From Rickettsiales bacterium (GTDB lineage Bacteria > Pseudomonadota > Alphaproteobacteria > Methylaequorales > Methylaequoraceae), in contig NZHE01000023.1 in NCBI GenBank assembly GCA_002691145.1, forward strand, positions 201,965 through 259,286: a stretch of DNA of 57,322 nt, written 5' to 3'. Below are positions 49,249 through 56,243 of the stretch, piece after piece. The position numbers and the translations under genes are program-made. Below the pieces are notes generated by a model. It made no database searches. It had not been told where the DNA came from and saw only the letters and a list, made by a program, of their open reading frames with translations. Position 1 is the stretch's first letter. Every line of letters starts with the position of its first letter.

Positions 49249-49974
49249 ATGTTTGAAAAATGCGAAAATTTCTTCTTTTCATGTGTAGAGAATACTAATC
49301 GCGAAATAAAAAAAATTTTTCAAGTAAATAAGGATATTGACTTCATAAGTTTACACACAAAAAAACAAATTATTGGTAAAGGTAGAAAATTAAATAAATG
49401 GATCAGTAAAGAAGGTGATTTCACATGCTCATATTTGATAAATAAGTCTTTCAAAATATCTATGTTAGGACAATTAAATATTATAATAAGTATATCTATT
49501 TTAGAATGCTTAAAAAGATATTACCCGAATATAAATTTTTATCTAAAATGGCCAAATGATATACTTATTGATGATAAAAAAATAGGTGGTGTTTTAATTG
49601 AGACTAATATTAGTAAAGGTGTAATTACACATTTAGTTGTCGGTATTGGAATAAATTTTGTCTCTAACCCAACTCTTGAAAATTATAAAACAGCGAAAAT
49701 TTTGGATTTTACAAATAAAATAGATACTGTAAAAATTTTTCATTGTTTATCAAAAAAAATAAAAGATAATATAGTTTTATGGAATGAAAAAAATTTCACT
49801 TCTTTCAAAAAAAAATGGATGAAAAGTTGCAAAGATATTGGAAATGAAGTTTTAATTAAAATGGGTGGAAAACATTTTATTGGCGTTTTAAAAGAAATAG
49901 ATGATTCTGCATTGTTGGTTTTAAAAACTAAAAATAATAACATTATTAAAGTTTCCTATGGAGACATAATATGA
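49249..49974 (+). CDS. birA: Biotin-[acetyl-CoA carboxylase] ligase
   Basis: The 241-residue catalytic-only biotin protein ligase, without an N-terminal DNA-binding domain. The biotin/ATP motif region is IGKGRKLNKWISKEGDF, followed by LKWPNDILIDDKKIGGVLIE and VVGIGINF. It attaches biotin to carboxyl-carrier proteins. The GRGRxGRxW pattern of the family is altered to GKGRKLNKW. It lies 1 bp after nuoN. Confidence 0.93.
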   Translation: MFEKCENFFFSCVENTNREIKKIFQVNKDIDFISLHTKKQIIGKGRKLNKWISKEGDFTCSYLINKSFKISMLGQLNIIISISILECLKRYYPNINFYLKWPNDILIDDKKIGGVLIETNISKGVITHLVVGIGINFVSNPTLENYKTAKILDFTNKIDTVKIFHCLSKKIKDNIVLWNEKNFTSFKKKWMKSCKDIGNEVLIKMGGKHFIGVLKEIDDSALLVLKTKNNNIIKVSYGDII

Positions 49975-49981
49975 AGGTTCT

Positions 49982-50746
49982 ATGCTTTTAACTATCGATA
50001 TAGGGAACACAAATATAATGTTTTCATTATTTAAAGATTTCAAAATAAAAAAAATAAAAAGATTTAAAAAAGATTTAATATTATCAAGAGACGATTTGAT
50101 GATTTTTTTTAAACTTTTATTTAAAATAAAAAACTTGGAAGCCATTATGATCAGTAGTGTTGTTCCCGAGTTAAACAATTTATTCAAGCATTTCTTTTTA
50201 AAAGAATTCAAAATTAGTCCAATTTTTATTAATGAACACCTTAATTCTTTAGATTTTAAAACAAACATTAAGGATAAAAGGTCAATAGGTGCAGATAGAA
50301 TTGTAAATGTAATTTACTCCAAAAGTTTGGTAAAATGTCCAATAATGATTATTGATTTTGGCACCGCAACAACGGTAGATTATGTTAATAGCGAAGGAGT
50401 ATATGAAGGTGGAATAATATCTCCTGGAATTGATTTATCATTAAAAAGCTTGCATCAATTTACATCAAAACTACCTTTAGTTAAATTTGAAGAAACAAAA
50501 AATATAATTGGTAATACAACTAAATCAGCTATACAATCAGGGTTTTTTTGGGGGTATGTGTCTATGATTAATGGATTTATAAAACTGATTAATAAGGAAA
50601 AAAATATTAAATCTAATTTAATTTTGACTGGTGGTAACTGTAGTGTTTTTACACCATATATAAAAAATATTTTTTTACTTGATGAACATTTATCAATGAG
50701 AGGTTTAAATTTTTTATTTGGAGAGTTAAAAAAAAGTGGAAAATAA
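49982..50746 (+). CDS. coaX: Type III pantothenate kinase
   Basis: A 254-residue ASKHA-fold kinase for the first step of coenzyme A synthesis. Motifs are LTIDIGNTNIMFSLF (phosphate-binding), IGADRIVN, DFGTATTVD and a glycine-rich GGIISPGIDLS; LTGGN is near the C-terminus. A GAAGG site precedes the ATG. It follows birA by 7 bp. Confidence 0.95.
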   Translation: MLLTIDIGNTNIMFSLFKDFKIKKIKRFKKDLILSRDDLMIFFKLLFKIKNLEAIMISSVVPELNNLFKHFFLKEFKISPIFINEHLNSLDFKTNIKDKRSIGADRIVNVIYSKSLVKCPIMIIDFGTATTVDYVNSEGVYEGGIISPGIDLSLKSLHQFTSKLPLVKFEETKNIIGNTTKSAIQSGFFWGYVSMINGFIKLINKEKNIKSNLILTGGNCSVFTPYIKNIFLLDEHLSMRGLNFLFGELKKSGK

Positions 50747-52422
50747 TTTTAAAGATCTAAATTTTGAAAATAAAAATCTAATATTCCTTCCTTTAGGTGG
50801 TTCTGGTGAAATTGGAATGAATTGTAATTTATATCACTTTAAAGATCAGTGGTTGGTTGTTGATTTAGGTATTACTTTTAAAGATGAAAGGGTGCCATCT
50901 GCAGAAATCTTAATGCCTAATATAGATTTTTTGATCTCAATAAAAAAAAAAAATAAAGGCTATTATTCTTACTCATGCTCATGAAGATCATATAGGAGCA
51001 ATGCCCTATTTATACAAATATCTTGATGATTGCCCAATCTATACGACTTCTTTTACGGCTTCTGTTTTAGAAAAAAAGTTTCTAAATAATAATATTCACA
51101 ATAAAAAAATAAATATTCTAGAATATGAAAAAAACATAAATATTGGTGAATTTAACATTGAAATAGTTGCAATGACTCATTCTATTCCAGAGCCTAATGC
51201 TATAGTAATAAGAACAAAGAAAGGAAATATTTTTCATACTGGTGATTGGAAGATTGATCCTACTCCATTAGTTGGTAATCCAATTAATGTAAAGAAAATT
51301 CAAAAAATTTCTAAAGAAAAAATTCATGCAATGATTTGTGATTCTACAAATGTTTTTGAAAAAATTCCATCTGGTTCCGAAAACGATGTAAGAAATACAC
51401 TGGAAAAAATATTTTCAGAAAAAAAACAAGGAAAGATTATTATTTCGTGTTTTGCTTCAAATATTGCAAGGTTAGATACAATTGCACAAGTTGCTAGAAA
51501 TAACAATAGAAGTTGTATTTTACTAGGAAGATCTTTAAAGAGAATTTATGAGTCCGCCTTAGAAAATAATTATTTAACAAAACAAAAACCATTTATTAAT
51601 GAAAAAGATGGAAAACACATATCAGACGAAAATGTAGTTTTAATATGTACTGGAAGTCAGGGAGAAAAAAGAGCTGCTCTGCACAAGTTGATAAATGGAG
51701 ACAACAAAAACTTTTTTATTAATAATAATGATTTAGTAATATTTTCCTCAAGAGAAATTCCAGGTAATGAACAACAAATTAATAACATAAAAAATATTTT
51801 AAGAAAGATTAATTGTAAGTACATTGACGATAAGTCAGATATGGTCCATGTTTCAGGACATCCCTCCAAGCAAGAATTGGCAAAAATGTATGATTGGGTT
51901 AAACCAGATATTCTTATCCCTGTACATGGTGAATTTCAACACCTTTCAGAGCATTTTGATTTTGCTAAAAACTCTGGTATCAAGAATCCAATACTTATTG
52001 AAAATGGAGACTGTGTTTTGTTAGATAATGATGAGAATAATAAGATTGTTGATAAAGTTTTTACTAGTAGAAATGTTCTTTTAGGAAATAGAATACTTCC
52101 TATTGAACGAAGACTTTTTGATAATTCAAGAATAATAAATAATGAAGGTGAAATTTTGATAGTATTGATTTTAAATTTAGATGACATGCTAGTTGTTAGA
52201 CCGATAATATCATGTTTAACTATTTTTGATGATAAAGATGTTAATGAGTTTGAAAAAATTAAAAATTTTATTGAATTATTTGTATCTGAGCAACTTTTAA
52301 AATCTCCAAATGATGAAATGTTTGTAGATCTTTTGATTAAAAAAATAAGAAATTATATAAAAAAAGACTATGGGATTAAACCCATGGTAGACTTAAAAAT
52401 AATAAGGTTGCAACAAAAATGA
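50736..52422 (+). CDS. rnj: Ribonuclease J, interrupted by a one-base frameshift
   Basis: The frame starts at GTG 50736, overlapping coaX by 11 bases, with LPLGGSGEIGMNCNLY, but shifts in an A tract (50942-50953, 12 A) and stops at 50984. Dropping one A joins it to the frame that runs to 52422, giving 561 residues, the normal size. The join restores IKAIILTHAHEDHIGAMPY, with the metal-binding HxHxDH motif; HTGDWKID and SGHPSKQEL follow. In the second frame the first ATG (51001) comes after that motif, so neither piece alone can be active. RNase J is a 5'-exo/endoribonuclease for mRNA decay and RNA maturation and is normally kept intact in this gene order. Confidence 0.93.
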
Positions 52423-52823
52423 TTACAAAATTTAATCATGTCGCAATTGCAGTCCCTGACCTTGAAAAAGCATCACAATTATATAAAGATATTCTGGGAG
52501 CAAAAGTTTCTAAAGTTTTCAATTACAAGGAACACGGTGTGAGTGTTGTATTTGTTGAATTAAGTAATACGAAGATAGAACTAATGCAACCTTATGGAGA
52601 TAATTCTCCAATCAAGAATTTTTTAGATAAAAATTCATTTGGTGGTATACATCATATTTGTTTAGAGGTTAAAGATATAATTAAAATGAGAGAAAAGTTA
52701 GTAAGCAATAATTTAAAGATTCTTGGAGACGGAGAGCCAAAGCTCGGTGCTCATAATAAGTTAGTGCTTTTCTTGCATCCCAAAGATTTTTATGGAACCT
52801 TAATTGAAATTGAACAGGAATAA
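52419..52823 (+). CDS. mce: Methylmalonyl-CoA epimerase
   Basis: A 134-residue vicinal-oxygen-chelate protein with two glyoxalase-like halves: NHVAIAVPDLEKASQLYKDIL (its landmark NHVAIAVPDL) and GGIHHICLEVKDI, ending in GTLIEIEQ. It interconverts methylmalonyl-CoA epimers in propionate breakdown. No mutase gene is in the window. The 4-base overlap with rnj and the place before the DUF1467 gene are typical of alphaproteobacteria. Confidence 0.92.
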   Translation: MITKFNHVAIAVPDLEKASQLYKDILGAKVSKVFNYKEHGVSVVFVELSNTKIELMQPYGDNSPIKNFLDKNSFGGIHHICLEVKDIIKMREKLVSNNLKILGDGEPKLGAHNKLVLFLHPKDFYGTLIEIEQE

Positions 52824-52825
52824 AT

Positions 52826-53044
52826 TTGTCAATATTTAGTGCTATAGTTCTTTATTTTGTAATTTGGTGGATTTCTCTATTTCTTTTTTTACCTTTAAAT
52901 ATAAAAAAGCAAAAAATCATTGAAAAAGGAAATGATCCAGGTGCCCCAGATAAACCTGAATTAAAAAAAAAGTTTTTTTTAAATAGTATTTTCTCATTAT
53001 TAGTTCTTATTATTATAATTATTATTAAAAATGTTTTTTTATGA
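52826..53044 (+). CDS. DUF1467 family small membrane protein
   Basis: A 72-residue protein with two membrane helices and the family pattern YFVIWWISLFLFLPL, then a short loop with NDPGAPDKP. Function unknown. The start is TTG at 52826 with an AGGA site. It lies between mce and proS, exactly as in other alphaproteobacteria, which supports the call. Confidence 0.88.
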   Translation: MSIFSAIVLYFVIWWISLFLFLPLNIKKQKIIEKGNDPGAPDKPELKKKFFLNSIFSLLVLIIIIIIKNVFL

Positions 53045-54327
53045 AATTGTCAAAATTTTTTATCCCTGCAAAAAAAGAAATTCCATCAGATGTAAAACTG
53101 AATTCTCATATATTAATGCTAAGAAGCGGTATGATACATTTGGAAGTTTCTGGTATTTATTCCTGGCTACCCTTTGGTTTTAGGGTTTTAAAAAAAATTC
53201 AAAACATAATTGAAGAAGAACATATTCGAAATGATATTAATCAAATGTTAATGCCAACTATCCAACCTTCAGAAATTTGGATAAAAAGCAATAGATTTGA
53301 TAGTTATGGATTAGAAATGTTAAAAATAACGGATAGAAATAAAAAAAAATTACTTTACGGACCAACTAATGAAGAAATGGTTACAGTGATTGGTAATGAT
53401 TACATCAATAGCTATAAACAACTACCTGTAAATTTATTTCATATTCAAACAAAATTCAGAGACGAGATAAGGCCAAGGCATGGAGTAATGAGAGCTAGAG
53501 AATTTATAATGAAAGATGCATATAGTTTTGATAAAAATAAAAATGATTCTTATGACACCTACAAGATGTATTTTAAAATGTATATTCAAATTTTTAAAAA
53601 ATTAGGAATAGATATAATTCCTGTTAAAGCATTAAGTGGTGAAATTGGGGGAGAAATTTCTCATGAATTTCATATGATCTGTGAATCTGGAGAATCTAGA
53701 ATTATTTATACAGATTTACCAAATGAAAAATCTGTGTTTGATTATTTTGATTTTTATAAGAAGAATTATTCTTCGACGGACGAATATTTTAATAAGGACG
53801 AAAAAAAACCAAAAACGTATCATGTTGCTAATAGTATTGAGCTAGGCCATATTTTTTTATTTGGTGAAAAATATTCAAAACCTTTCAATTTTAAAATAGA
53901 TACTCCTGAAGGAAGTGTAAATCCATATATGGGTTCATACGGCATTGGGATTTCAAGACTTCCAGCTGCAATTATTGAGAAAAATTATGATAAAAAAGGA
54001 ATCATATGGCCCAAGGAAATTTCACCTTTTGACTTAATGTTAATAAATTTAAAAATAGAGAATGAAGGTTGCTTAAGTTTTTGTGAGGGACTTTATAAAG
54101 AACTTAAAAAATACAACATAGAAGTTTTATATGACGACACAAATGAGAGAGTAGGGATTAAATTTAATAAATCTGATCTATTCGGCATTCCTTACCAAAT
54201 AATAGTTGGGAATAAATATACTGAGAACAAAATGGTACAGATAAAAAATAGAAAAACACACTTAGAAGTTGAATGTTCAGCAGGACAAATTTTAAAAAAG
54301 ATATTAAGTATTATAAAAGATGATTAG
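53041..54327 (+). CDS. proS: Prolyl-tRNA synthetase
   Basis: A 428-residue class II synthetase of the short bacterial type without the editing insertion, as usual in alphaproteobacteria. Motif 2 lies in FRDEIRPRHGVMRAREFIMKDAYSF (landmark RPRHGVMRAREF), and the late motif 3 in GSYGIGISRLPAA. It charges tRNA-Pro. It overlaps the DUF1467 gene by 4 bases and lolC by 8. Confidence 0.96.
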   Translation: MKLSKFFIPAKKEIPSDVKLNSHILMLRSGMIHLEVSGIYSWLPFGFRVLKKIQNIIEEEHIRNDINQMLMPTIQPSEIWIKSNRFDSYGLEMLKITDRNKKKLLYGPTNEEMVTVIGNDYINSYKQLPVNLFHIQTKFRDEIRPRHGVMRAREFIMKDAYSFDKNKNDSYDTYKMYFKMYIQIFKKLGIDIIPVKALSGEIGGEISHEFHMICESGESRIIYTDLPNEKSVFDYFDFYKKNYSSTDEYFNKDEKKPKTYHVANSIELGHIFLFGEKYSKPFNFKIDTPEGSVNPYMGSYGIGISRLPAAIIEKNYDKKGIIWPKEISPFDLMLINLKIENEGCLSFCEGLYKELKKYNIEVLYDDTNERVGIKFNKSDLFGIPYQIIVGNKYTENKMVQIKNRKTHLEVECSAGQILKKILSIIKDD

Positions 54328-55567
54328 TTTTTTCGAATTTTTCATATCTAAAAGATATTTAATTTCTAATAAGAAAGAAGGTTTTTTTTCATTAATTACT
54401 TTCTTTTCTTTTCTTGGTATTTCTCTGGGTGTTGCGACATTAATAATCGTTATGTCTGTTATGAATGGATTTAGAGAGGAACTTACTTCTAAAGTTTTGG
54501 GTGTAAACGGACATATGAAAATTCAAAATATGAGAAACCTAAAAATCAATGATTATGAAATTCTTAAAAAAGATATTCTAGATCAAACTACCCAGATTAA
54601 AGTTGAGCCTACAATTGTTAGTCAAGGTCTTCTTTCTGCAAATAATAACTCTCGTGGTGTTTTTTTAAAAGGACTTGATTTTGAAAATTTCACCGAAAGA
54701 AATTTGTTTTCAAATCTATCTTCCTCTGAATCCTTAAGACTATTCAAAAATGGTAAAGGTGTCATAATAGGAAAAAGGTTGCAAGAAAAGTTGGGCATTA
54801 AAAAAGGACAGAAAATTAAAATAATATCAGCAAATGGAATTACAACACCCTTTGGAAAGATAACAAATTCAGCAACATTTAGAGTTATTGATTTTTTTGA
54901 AACAGGGATGTATGAATATGATGTTTCTTTGATTTTATTTCCTTTAAAACTTATCCAAAGTTTTTTAGATATGAATGATAAAGTTGATAACATCGAGATT
55001 TTTTTAGACGATTTTGATAAGTACGAAGAAGTCTTTTTGAAAATTAAAAATACAATTCCAGATTACTATAAGTTAATTGATTGGAGATCTTTGAATCCTT
55101 CTCTTTTTAATGCAATTGAAATCGAAAGAAATGTGATGTTTTTAATATTGGTTTTAATAATTATTGTAGCAGCGTTTAACTTAGTTTCTTCCATGATAAT
55201 GCTTGTCAAAAATAAAACAAAAGATATTGGGGTTTTGAGAACAATGGGAGCAAGTAAATCTCAACTACTAAAAATTTTTATACTTAACGGTTTTTTTATA
55301 GGCTTAGTTGGAACTTTGTTAGGCCTGCTATTAGGAATTACTTTTTGTTATAATATAAATAATATTAAAGACTTTATAGAGATTTTTACAAATGCTGAGT
55401 TGTTTGCTAAAGAAATTTATTTTTTCTCAAATTTGCCAGTAATCATTAATTATTCCGAGATATTTTTAATATGTATGTTTTCCATAATTTGTTCTTTGGT
55501 TGCAACAATTTATCCTGCATATAAAGCATCTCTAATAGAACCTATTAATTTAATTAGGTGGGAATAA
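54320..55567 (+). CDS. lolC: Lipoprotein-releasing ABC transporter permease
   Basis: The 415-residue permease has one N-terminal membrane helix, a large periplasmic domain (about residues 45-260) and three C-terminal helices (FtsX/MacB fold). SLITFFSFLGISLGVATLI and VMSVMNGFREEL are the family opening, and KTKDIGVLRTMGAS is the coupling region. As usual in alphaproteobacteria, a single gene serves as LolC/E. With LolD it extracts lipoproteins from the inner membrane for the outer membrane. Confidence 0.94.
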   Translation: MISFFEFFISKRYLISNKKEGFFSLITFFSFLGISLGVATLIIVMSVMNGFREELTSKVLGVNGHMKIQNMRNLKINDYEILKKDILDQTTQIKVEPTIVSQGLLSANNNSRGVFLKGLDFENFTERNLFSNLSSSESLRLFKNGKGVIIGKRLQEKLGIKKGQKIKIISANGITTPFGKITNSATFRVIDFFETGMYEYDVSLILFPLKLIQSFLDMNDKVDNIEIFLDDFDKYEEVFLKIKNTIPDYYKLIDWRSLNPSLFNAIEIERNVMFLILVLIIIVAAFNLVSSMIMLVKNKTKDIGVLRTMGASKSQLLKIFILNGFFIGLVGTLLGLLLGITFCYNINNIKDFIEIFTNAELFAKEIYFFSNLPVIINYSEIFLICMFSIICSLVATIYPAYKASLIEPINLIRWE

Positions 55568-55568
55568 A

Positions 55569-56243
55569 TTGCTTTTAAGTATTGAAAATATTGTTAAAAA
55601 TTTTGAACAAGGAAAAGATACCTTACAAGTTCTTAATAATATTTGTTTGAGAGTTGATGAAAAAAAAAATATTGGTTTGATTGGTCCCTCGGGCTCTGGT
55701 AAAAGTACACTCTTAAATATCATTGGATTAATAGATGCTCCAACTAGAGGAACATTAAAAATAGATAATATTAATTGTGATATTTTGGACCAAGATCAAA
55801 GAACTGCATTTAGAAGAAAGAACATTGGTTTTATTTTTCAAAACAATCAATTATTGCATGATTTTAATTGTCAAGAAAATATTGCTCTTCCGTTAATATT
55901 AAATGGAACAGGTTATAATGCTGCAGTATTAAAGGCGCAAGAGATGTTAGAGAAACTTAATTTGCAAGAAAAGTTCAAGTCAAAGATTTCAATACTTTCA
56001 GGAGGTGAGAAGCAGAGAGTATCAGTCTTAAGAGCATTAATTAAAAAACCATATATATTATTAGCTGATGAACCTACAGGTAGTTTGGATGAAAATAATT
56101 CTATTAAAGTATTTAATGAGATCCTCAAATTAGCTAACTCACAGAATACATTGACAATTACAGCAACGCATAATCTGAACTTAATAAAAAAATTTGATTC
56201 TTGTTATAAGTTAGAAAAAGGGCGGTTAATTGAATACACATAA
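55569..56243 (+). CDS. lolD: Lipoprotein-releasing ABC transporter ATPase
   Basis: The 224-residue ABC ATPase has Walker [11 protein letters not shown]-loop FQNNQLL, signature LSGGEKQRV and Walker [10 protein letters not shown]. The start is TTG at 55569, with a GGTGGGA ribosome site. It pairs with LolC, 1 bp upstream, and overlaps dnaE by 14 bases. Confidence 0.95.

Follow-up and report, generated by a model that had tools for sequence, protein, structure and literature searches.

A frame break at a 12-A run in an RNase J gene, one of many at long A/T runs in a draft genome and probably an error of run length

Background

Frame breaks at poly(A) runs in otherwise well kept genes have been described in Blochmannia and Buchnera. 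In Blochmannia vafer 8 of 153 A runs of at least 9 are broken; these breaks are held to be real, and a rescue by transcriptional slippage has been proposed for them (PMC3017870). In E. coli and Buchnera the usual transcription error at A/T runs is an insertion, and 80% of the insertions are of single bases (PMC5574713). Long homopolymers are also a problem for sequencing itself, as the consensus from nanopore R10.4 reads is mostly right only for runs shorter than 11 bp; only 1% of genera have more than 1 run longer than 10 bp per 100 kb (PMC9262707). As for the enzyme considered here, the role of RNase J was found to be limited in Rhodobacter sphaeroides (PMC7866481). Below we compare with these systems an RNase J gene that is split at a 12-A run. 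It lies in a stretch of 57,322 nucleotides, which we call the window.

Results

Layout of the RNase J gene

The genome has one copy of RNase J, and in the window it is divided between two frames of the forward strand. The first frame (50736-50984) has a GTG start and encodes the N-terminal part (GGSGEIGMNCNLYHF...) followed by a short out-of-frame tail to a TGA, 82 amino acids in all, and matches positions 3-61 of TIGR00649 (E 5e-9). The second frame (50944-52422) holds KKKIKAIILTHAHEDHIGA and all of the remaining gene and matches positions 76-539 (E 4e-87). The match to the whole profile is therefore present, split over the two frames. Between them is a run of exactly 12 A (50942-50953, forward strand), one A above the frame that all relatives keep, and the sequence at the join reads FLISIKKK / AIILTHAHEDHIGA. 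The second frame opens only at this run, with a TAA ahead of it. Its first ATG, at 51001, is downstream of the metal-binding motif THAHEDH (50971-50991, forward strand) and leaves 473 amino acids, so that the motif lies outside both of the ATG/GTG/TTG-started frames. In the given sequence no single open frame leads from the RNase J start codon through the motif, as a stop follows after 82 codons. This layout agrees with the earlier note, which had the 12-A run putting THAHEDHIGA out of frame with the start and the first ATG of the second frame coming after the motif.

Apart from the break the gene is in good order, as the same note had also said. The second frame has HxHxDH as well as THSIPE, GDWK, DSTN, SGHPS and PVHGE, which is the full set of motifs. 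When conserved columns are defined as those kept in at least 9 of 10 full-length RNase J relatives, only 3 of 117 differ in the window gene and none of the 3 is in a catalytic motif. Its approximately 561 codons show no further frame damage.

The number of A residues that keeps the gene in frame can be judged from its relatives. Each of the 28 relatives measured, whether it belongs to the family or not, has a spacing of 58 residues from GG-GEIG (or GGSGEIG) to THAHEDH. In the window gene 11 A would give a spacing of 58 and 14 A a spacing of 59, and 10, 12 or 13 A lead to an early stop. Since the invariant spacing is matched by 11 A only, the run in the window is one A too long. None of the relatives found, all of them of other genera, has an A run at this position.

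Neighbourhood in the window

The genes on either side are intact and on the forward strand. Upstream are a birA-like biotin ligase (49249-49974; TIGR00121) and, immediately before RNase J and overlapping its start, a coaX-like type III pantothenate kinase (49982-50746; TIGR00671). Downstream a methylmalonyl-CoA epimerase (52419-52823; TIGR03081) overlaps the RNase J stop. Over 49249-56243 of the window, the order birA, coaX, rnj, mce, a small membrane protein and proS is common to relatives (L006, L007), and beyond proS the block in the window extends into lolC/E and lolD.

The window has a second frame-breaking 12-A run at 160-171, with the A residues on the coding strand of a reverse-strand gene (153-971). 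It is near the end of that gene, about 50 codons ahead of where the gene is expected to end. The gene is 89% identical to its homologue in a relative of another genus (G007), which is unusually high for these two genera, and no NCBIfam family matches that homologue.

Frame breaks at A/T runs across the genome

We sampled 851 kb of the genome of the window (G000; 2.03 Mb in 29 contigs), 1.16 Mb of the relative G007 and smaller amounts of four others. To judge by its gene content, the organism of G000 is an alphaproteobacterium. Each A or T run in genes covered by homology was scored by whether relatives' proteins gave one alignment spanning it or an alignment that switched frame there. The evidence is weak or tied for a few of the breaks, while most of them are flanked by strong alignments. 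A codon-usage scan of the frame round A runs was dropped in favour of this homology scan; its signal was weak, with 137 false shifts at 2091 control positions. When the sampled 851 kb of G000 was compared with itself, no near-identical second copies turned up whose run lengths could be set side by side.

The frame break at an A run is not peculiar to RNase J. Breaks in G000 were found at 1 of 2907 runs of 6-8, 14 of 321 runs of 9-11 and 13 of 44 runs of at least 12, so that they are confined to long homopolymers and rise with length, as expected of errors in homopolymer length. G022, from another genus of the family, has a similar series (0/2381, 7/315 and 9/39). In G007 the same classes gave 4/4554, 0/544 and 2/66. 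Taking all runs of at least 9, 27 of 365 were broken in G000 versus 2 of 610 in G007 (Fisher p 3e-10), with 16 of 354 in G022, and the density of runs of at least 12 is about 10 per 100 kb in G000 and 11 in G007. Among the runs of at least 9 in G000 the breaks affect both sense-A (25/313) and sense-T runs (2/52, the T runs being shorter), which fits a process at the level of DNA. The breaks of G000 and G022 also have a preferred direction, as in 35 of 43 the run has one base too many or lacks two (p 4e-5 against evenness). Their repair would thus need transcripts with one A fewer or two more, and RNase J is among these.

Several of the genes broken in G000, by comparison with intact homologues, are ones that a cell would be expected to need. 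They include glutamyl-tRNA synthetase, the beta chain of phenylalanyl-tRNA synthetase (pheT), GatB, FabZ and DNA polymerase I (polA), as well as LptB, KdsB, DapD, an acetolactate synthase-like and an RNase R-like protein and others. For pheT, gatB, fabZ and polA the broken copy is the only one, with no intact second copy, and in other family genomes pheT and polA are unsplit wherever the copy is contiguous. As a cell cannot lack all four, the breaks must either be absent from the organism or be rescued genome-wide. Two breaks each occur in kdsB, lptB and the RNase R-like gene (stretches L125, L123 and L129), and the pair in kdsB is opposite in direction. In G022 the broken genes include aspartyl-tRNA synthetase, CTP synthase, MurC, RecN and RNase J. 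The RNase J of that genome is broken at a different run, an A10 in its C-terminal half (19390-19399 of L137).

Long A runs in the family

Each of the 24 family genomes counted (family f1, G000-G023) has about 130-400 overlapping matches to 12 A, the two strands taken together. The same count in 16 genomes from 16 other families of the class is 0-2. The abundance of 12-A runs in this family is real and unusual.

Discussion

The reading we favour, with a probability of roughly 0.72, is that RNase J is intact in the organism and that the 12-A run of the draft assembly is one A too long, the consensus lengths of long A/T runs being unreliable here. The miscount would then have arisen in sequencing or assembly and would not belong to the fixed genome of the cell. 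In a family so rich in long A runs, each long run would carry a small chance of being miscounted, and a small chance repeated over many runs would produce dozens of apparent frameshifts, that of RNase J included. The consensus may at times also have picked minority length variants. The contigs are not sorted by size in G000, G022 and G004 and are sorted by size in the sampled G007, G016 and G006, a contrast that suggests different assembly pipelines. The earlier note had left the choice between an error in the sequence and polymerase slippage on the poly(A) of this gene. Of the two, the error has far more in its favour: frames are broken at long A runs across the genome, in single-copy indispensable genes as well, while a relative with an equal load of runs is almost clean. 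Slippage as something special to RNase J falls away.

Two points count against an error of run length. Nanopore reads usually undercall long homopolymers. The excess of runs that are one too long (35 of 43) is opposite to this, and it leaves the exact source of the error unaccounted for. Additionally, the broken fraction of G000 is like that of Blochmannia vafer, whose breaks are regarded as real.

The best placed of the alternatives, though still an unlikely one, takes the extra A as real but as one of several run lengths in the population. Most cells would have RNase J in frame, and the consensus would have caught an out-of-frame variant here and elsewhere. The family has many runs of at least 12 A, runs of this kind mutate fast by replication slippage, and the steep climb of the break rate with run length is in keeping with this. 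A mutational bias could also give the one direction shared by 35 of 43 breaks. However, harmful variants in pheT, polA, gatB and fabZ would be expected in only a few of the cells, and a majority consensus should rarely pick them. G007, with the same load of runs, has almost no breaks, and MutS and MutL are intact. Both genes have open frames in G000, and a hypermutator state through the loss of mismatch repair was rejected on this ground.

A little less likely again is that the assembled run lengths are the true, fixed ones and that RNA polymerase slippage on the A runs yields a mix of transcripts, some of them coding for full-length RNase J and for the other proteins with broken genes, as has been shown or proposed in Buchnera and Blochmannia. 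The breaks are indeed limited to runs long enough to slip (at least 9), the remainder of RNase J is intact, and indispensable single-copy genes are among those broken. The 25 of 313 broken A runs of at least 9 in G000 cannot be distinguished from the 8 of 153 in Blochmannia vafer (PMC3017870). The difficulty lies in the direction. From a template of 12 A, slippage would have to give RNase J transcripts of 11 or 14 A, and the minus one or plus two needed by 35 of the 43 breaks is the rare direction, as the usual insertion of one base would not repair them. Relatives with an equal load of A runs keep their frames, so a general tolerance is not a trait of the family, and at 2.0 Mb the genome is not of the reduced endosymbiont type. 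Rescue by slippage is thus possible only as a phenomenon of the whole genome and not of RNase J specifically, and as such it is less likely than a consensus error. In its full form this asks for a non-reduced, mismatch-repair-proficient, alphaproteobacterium-like lineage whose indispensable genes, with RNase J among those rescued, carry several dozen genuine frame-breaking A runs that are tolerated through pervasive transcriptional slippage, which we consider more improbable still.

It is quite improbable that the frameshift is real and that the strain has lost or is losing RNase J, with RNase E covering for it. RNase E is present and intact in the genome, and the role of RNase J is narrow in Rhodobacter sphaeroides (PMC7866481). 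These two facts would make even a true loss less surprising than the earlier note, which expected the gene to be important, had supposed. Against a loss, the gene has kept its conserved positions and is free of other frame damage, and similar breaks affect pheT, polA, gatB and fabZ, which cannot be lost. RNase J is also found in most genomes of the family, and those without it are mostly incomplete.

Programmed ribosomal frameshifting on the A run is very unlikely: A runs are slippery for ribosomes and could in principle join the two frames, but a minus-one shift, the common kind, runs straight into a stop (the 13-A case) and only a plus-one or minus-two shift would serve, the run is not conserved and is absent from relatives, and the sequence after the 12-A run showed no stable RNA structure beyond chance (z-score 0).

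Whichever of these holds, a gene that looks split at a long A run in this family should be checked against the reads before it is taken for biology. Real breaks would add up to a very large collection of indispensable genes that depend on slippage, outside the insect endosymbionts. The abundance of A12 runs across the family stands in either case, and it could be used to test how such runs are tolerated by bacteria that have mismatch repair.

Comparison with known systems

The poly(A) frameshifts of Blochmannia and Buchnera (PMC3017870) are similar to the present case in that the genome is AT-rich, has many coding A runs of at least 9 and carries indels within such runs in indispensable genes, the remaining parts of which are well kept, with a similar fraction broken. 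The differences are that the genome here is larger and retains mismatch repair, and that its breaks are not common to the relatives found, all of other genera, and mostly need minus one or plus two. Homopolymer errors in the draft consensus of long-read metagenome-assembled genomes (PMC9262707) likewise give single-base frameshifts in otherwise intact genes, many genes at once, and affect only long homopolymers, more so with length. They differ in that the excess here is of runs one too long, not one too short. Compared with other members of Ribonuclease J (TIGR00649, of the beta-CASP metallo-beta-lactamase family), the gene has all the motifs once the two frames are combined, is present in a single copy and has birA, coaX, mce and proS as neighbours, as in relatives. 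It differs from them only by the frame break at the A run.
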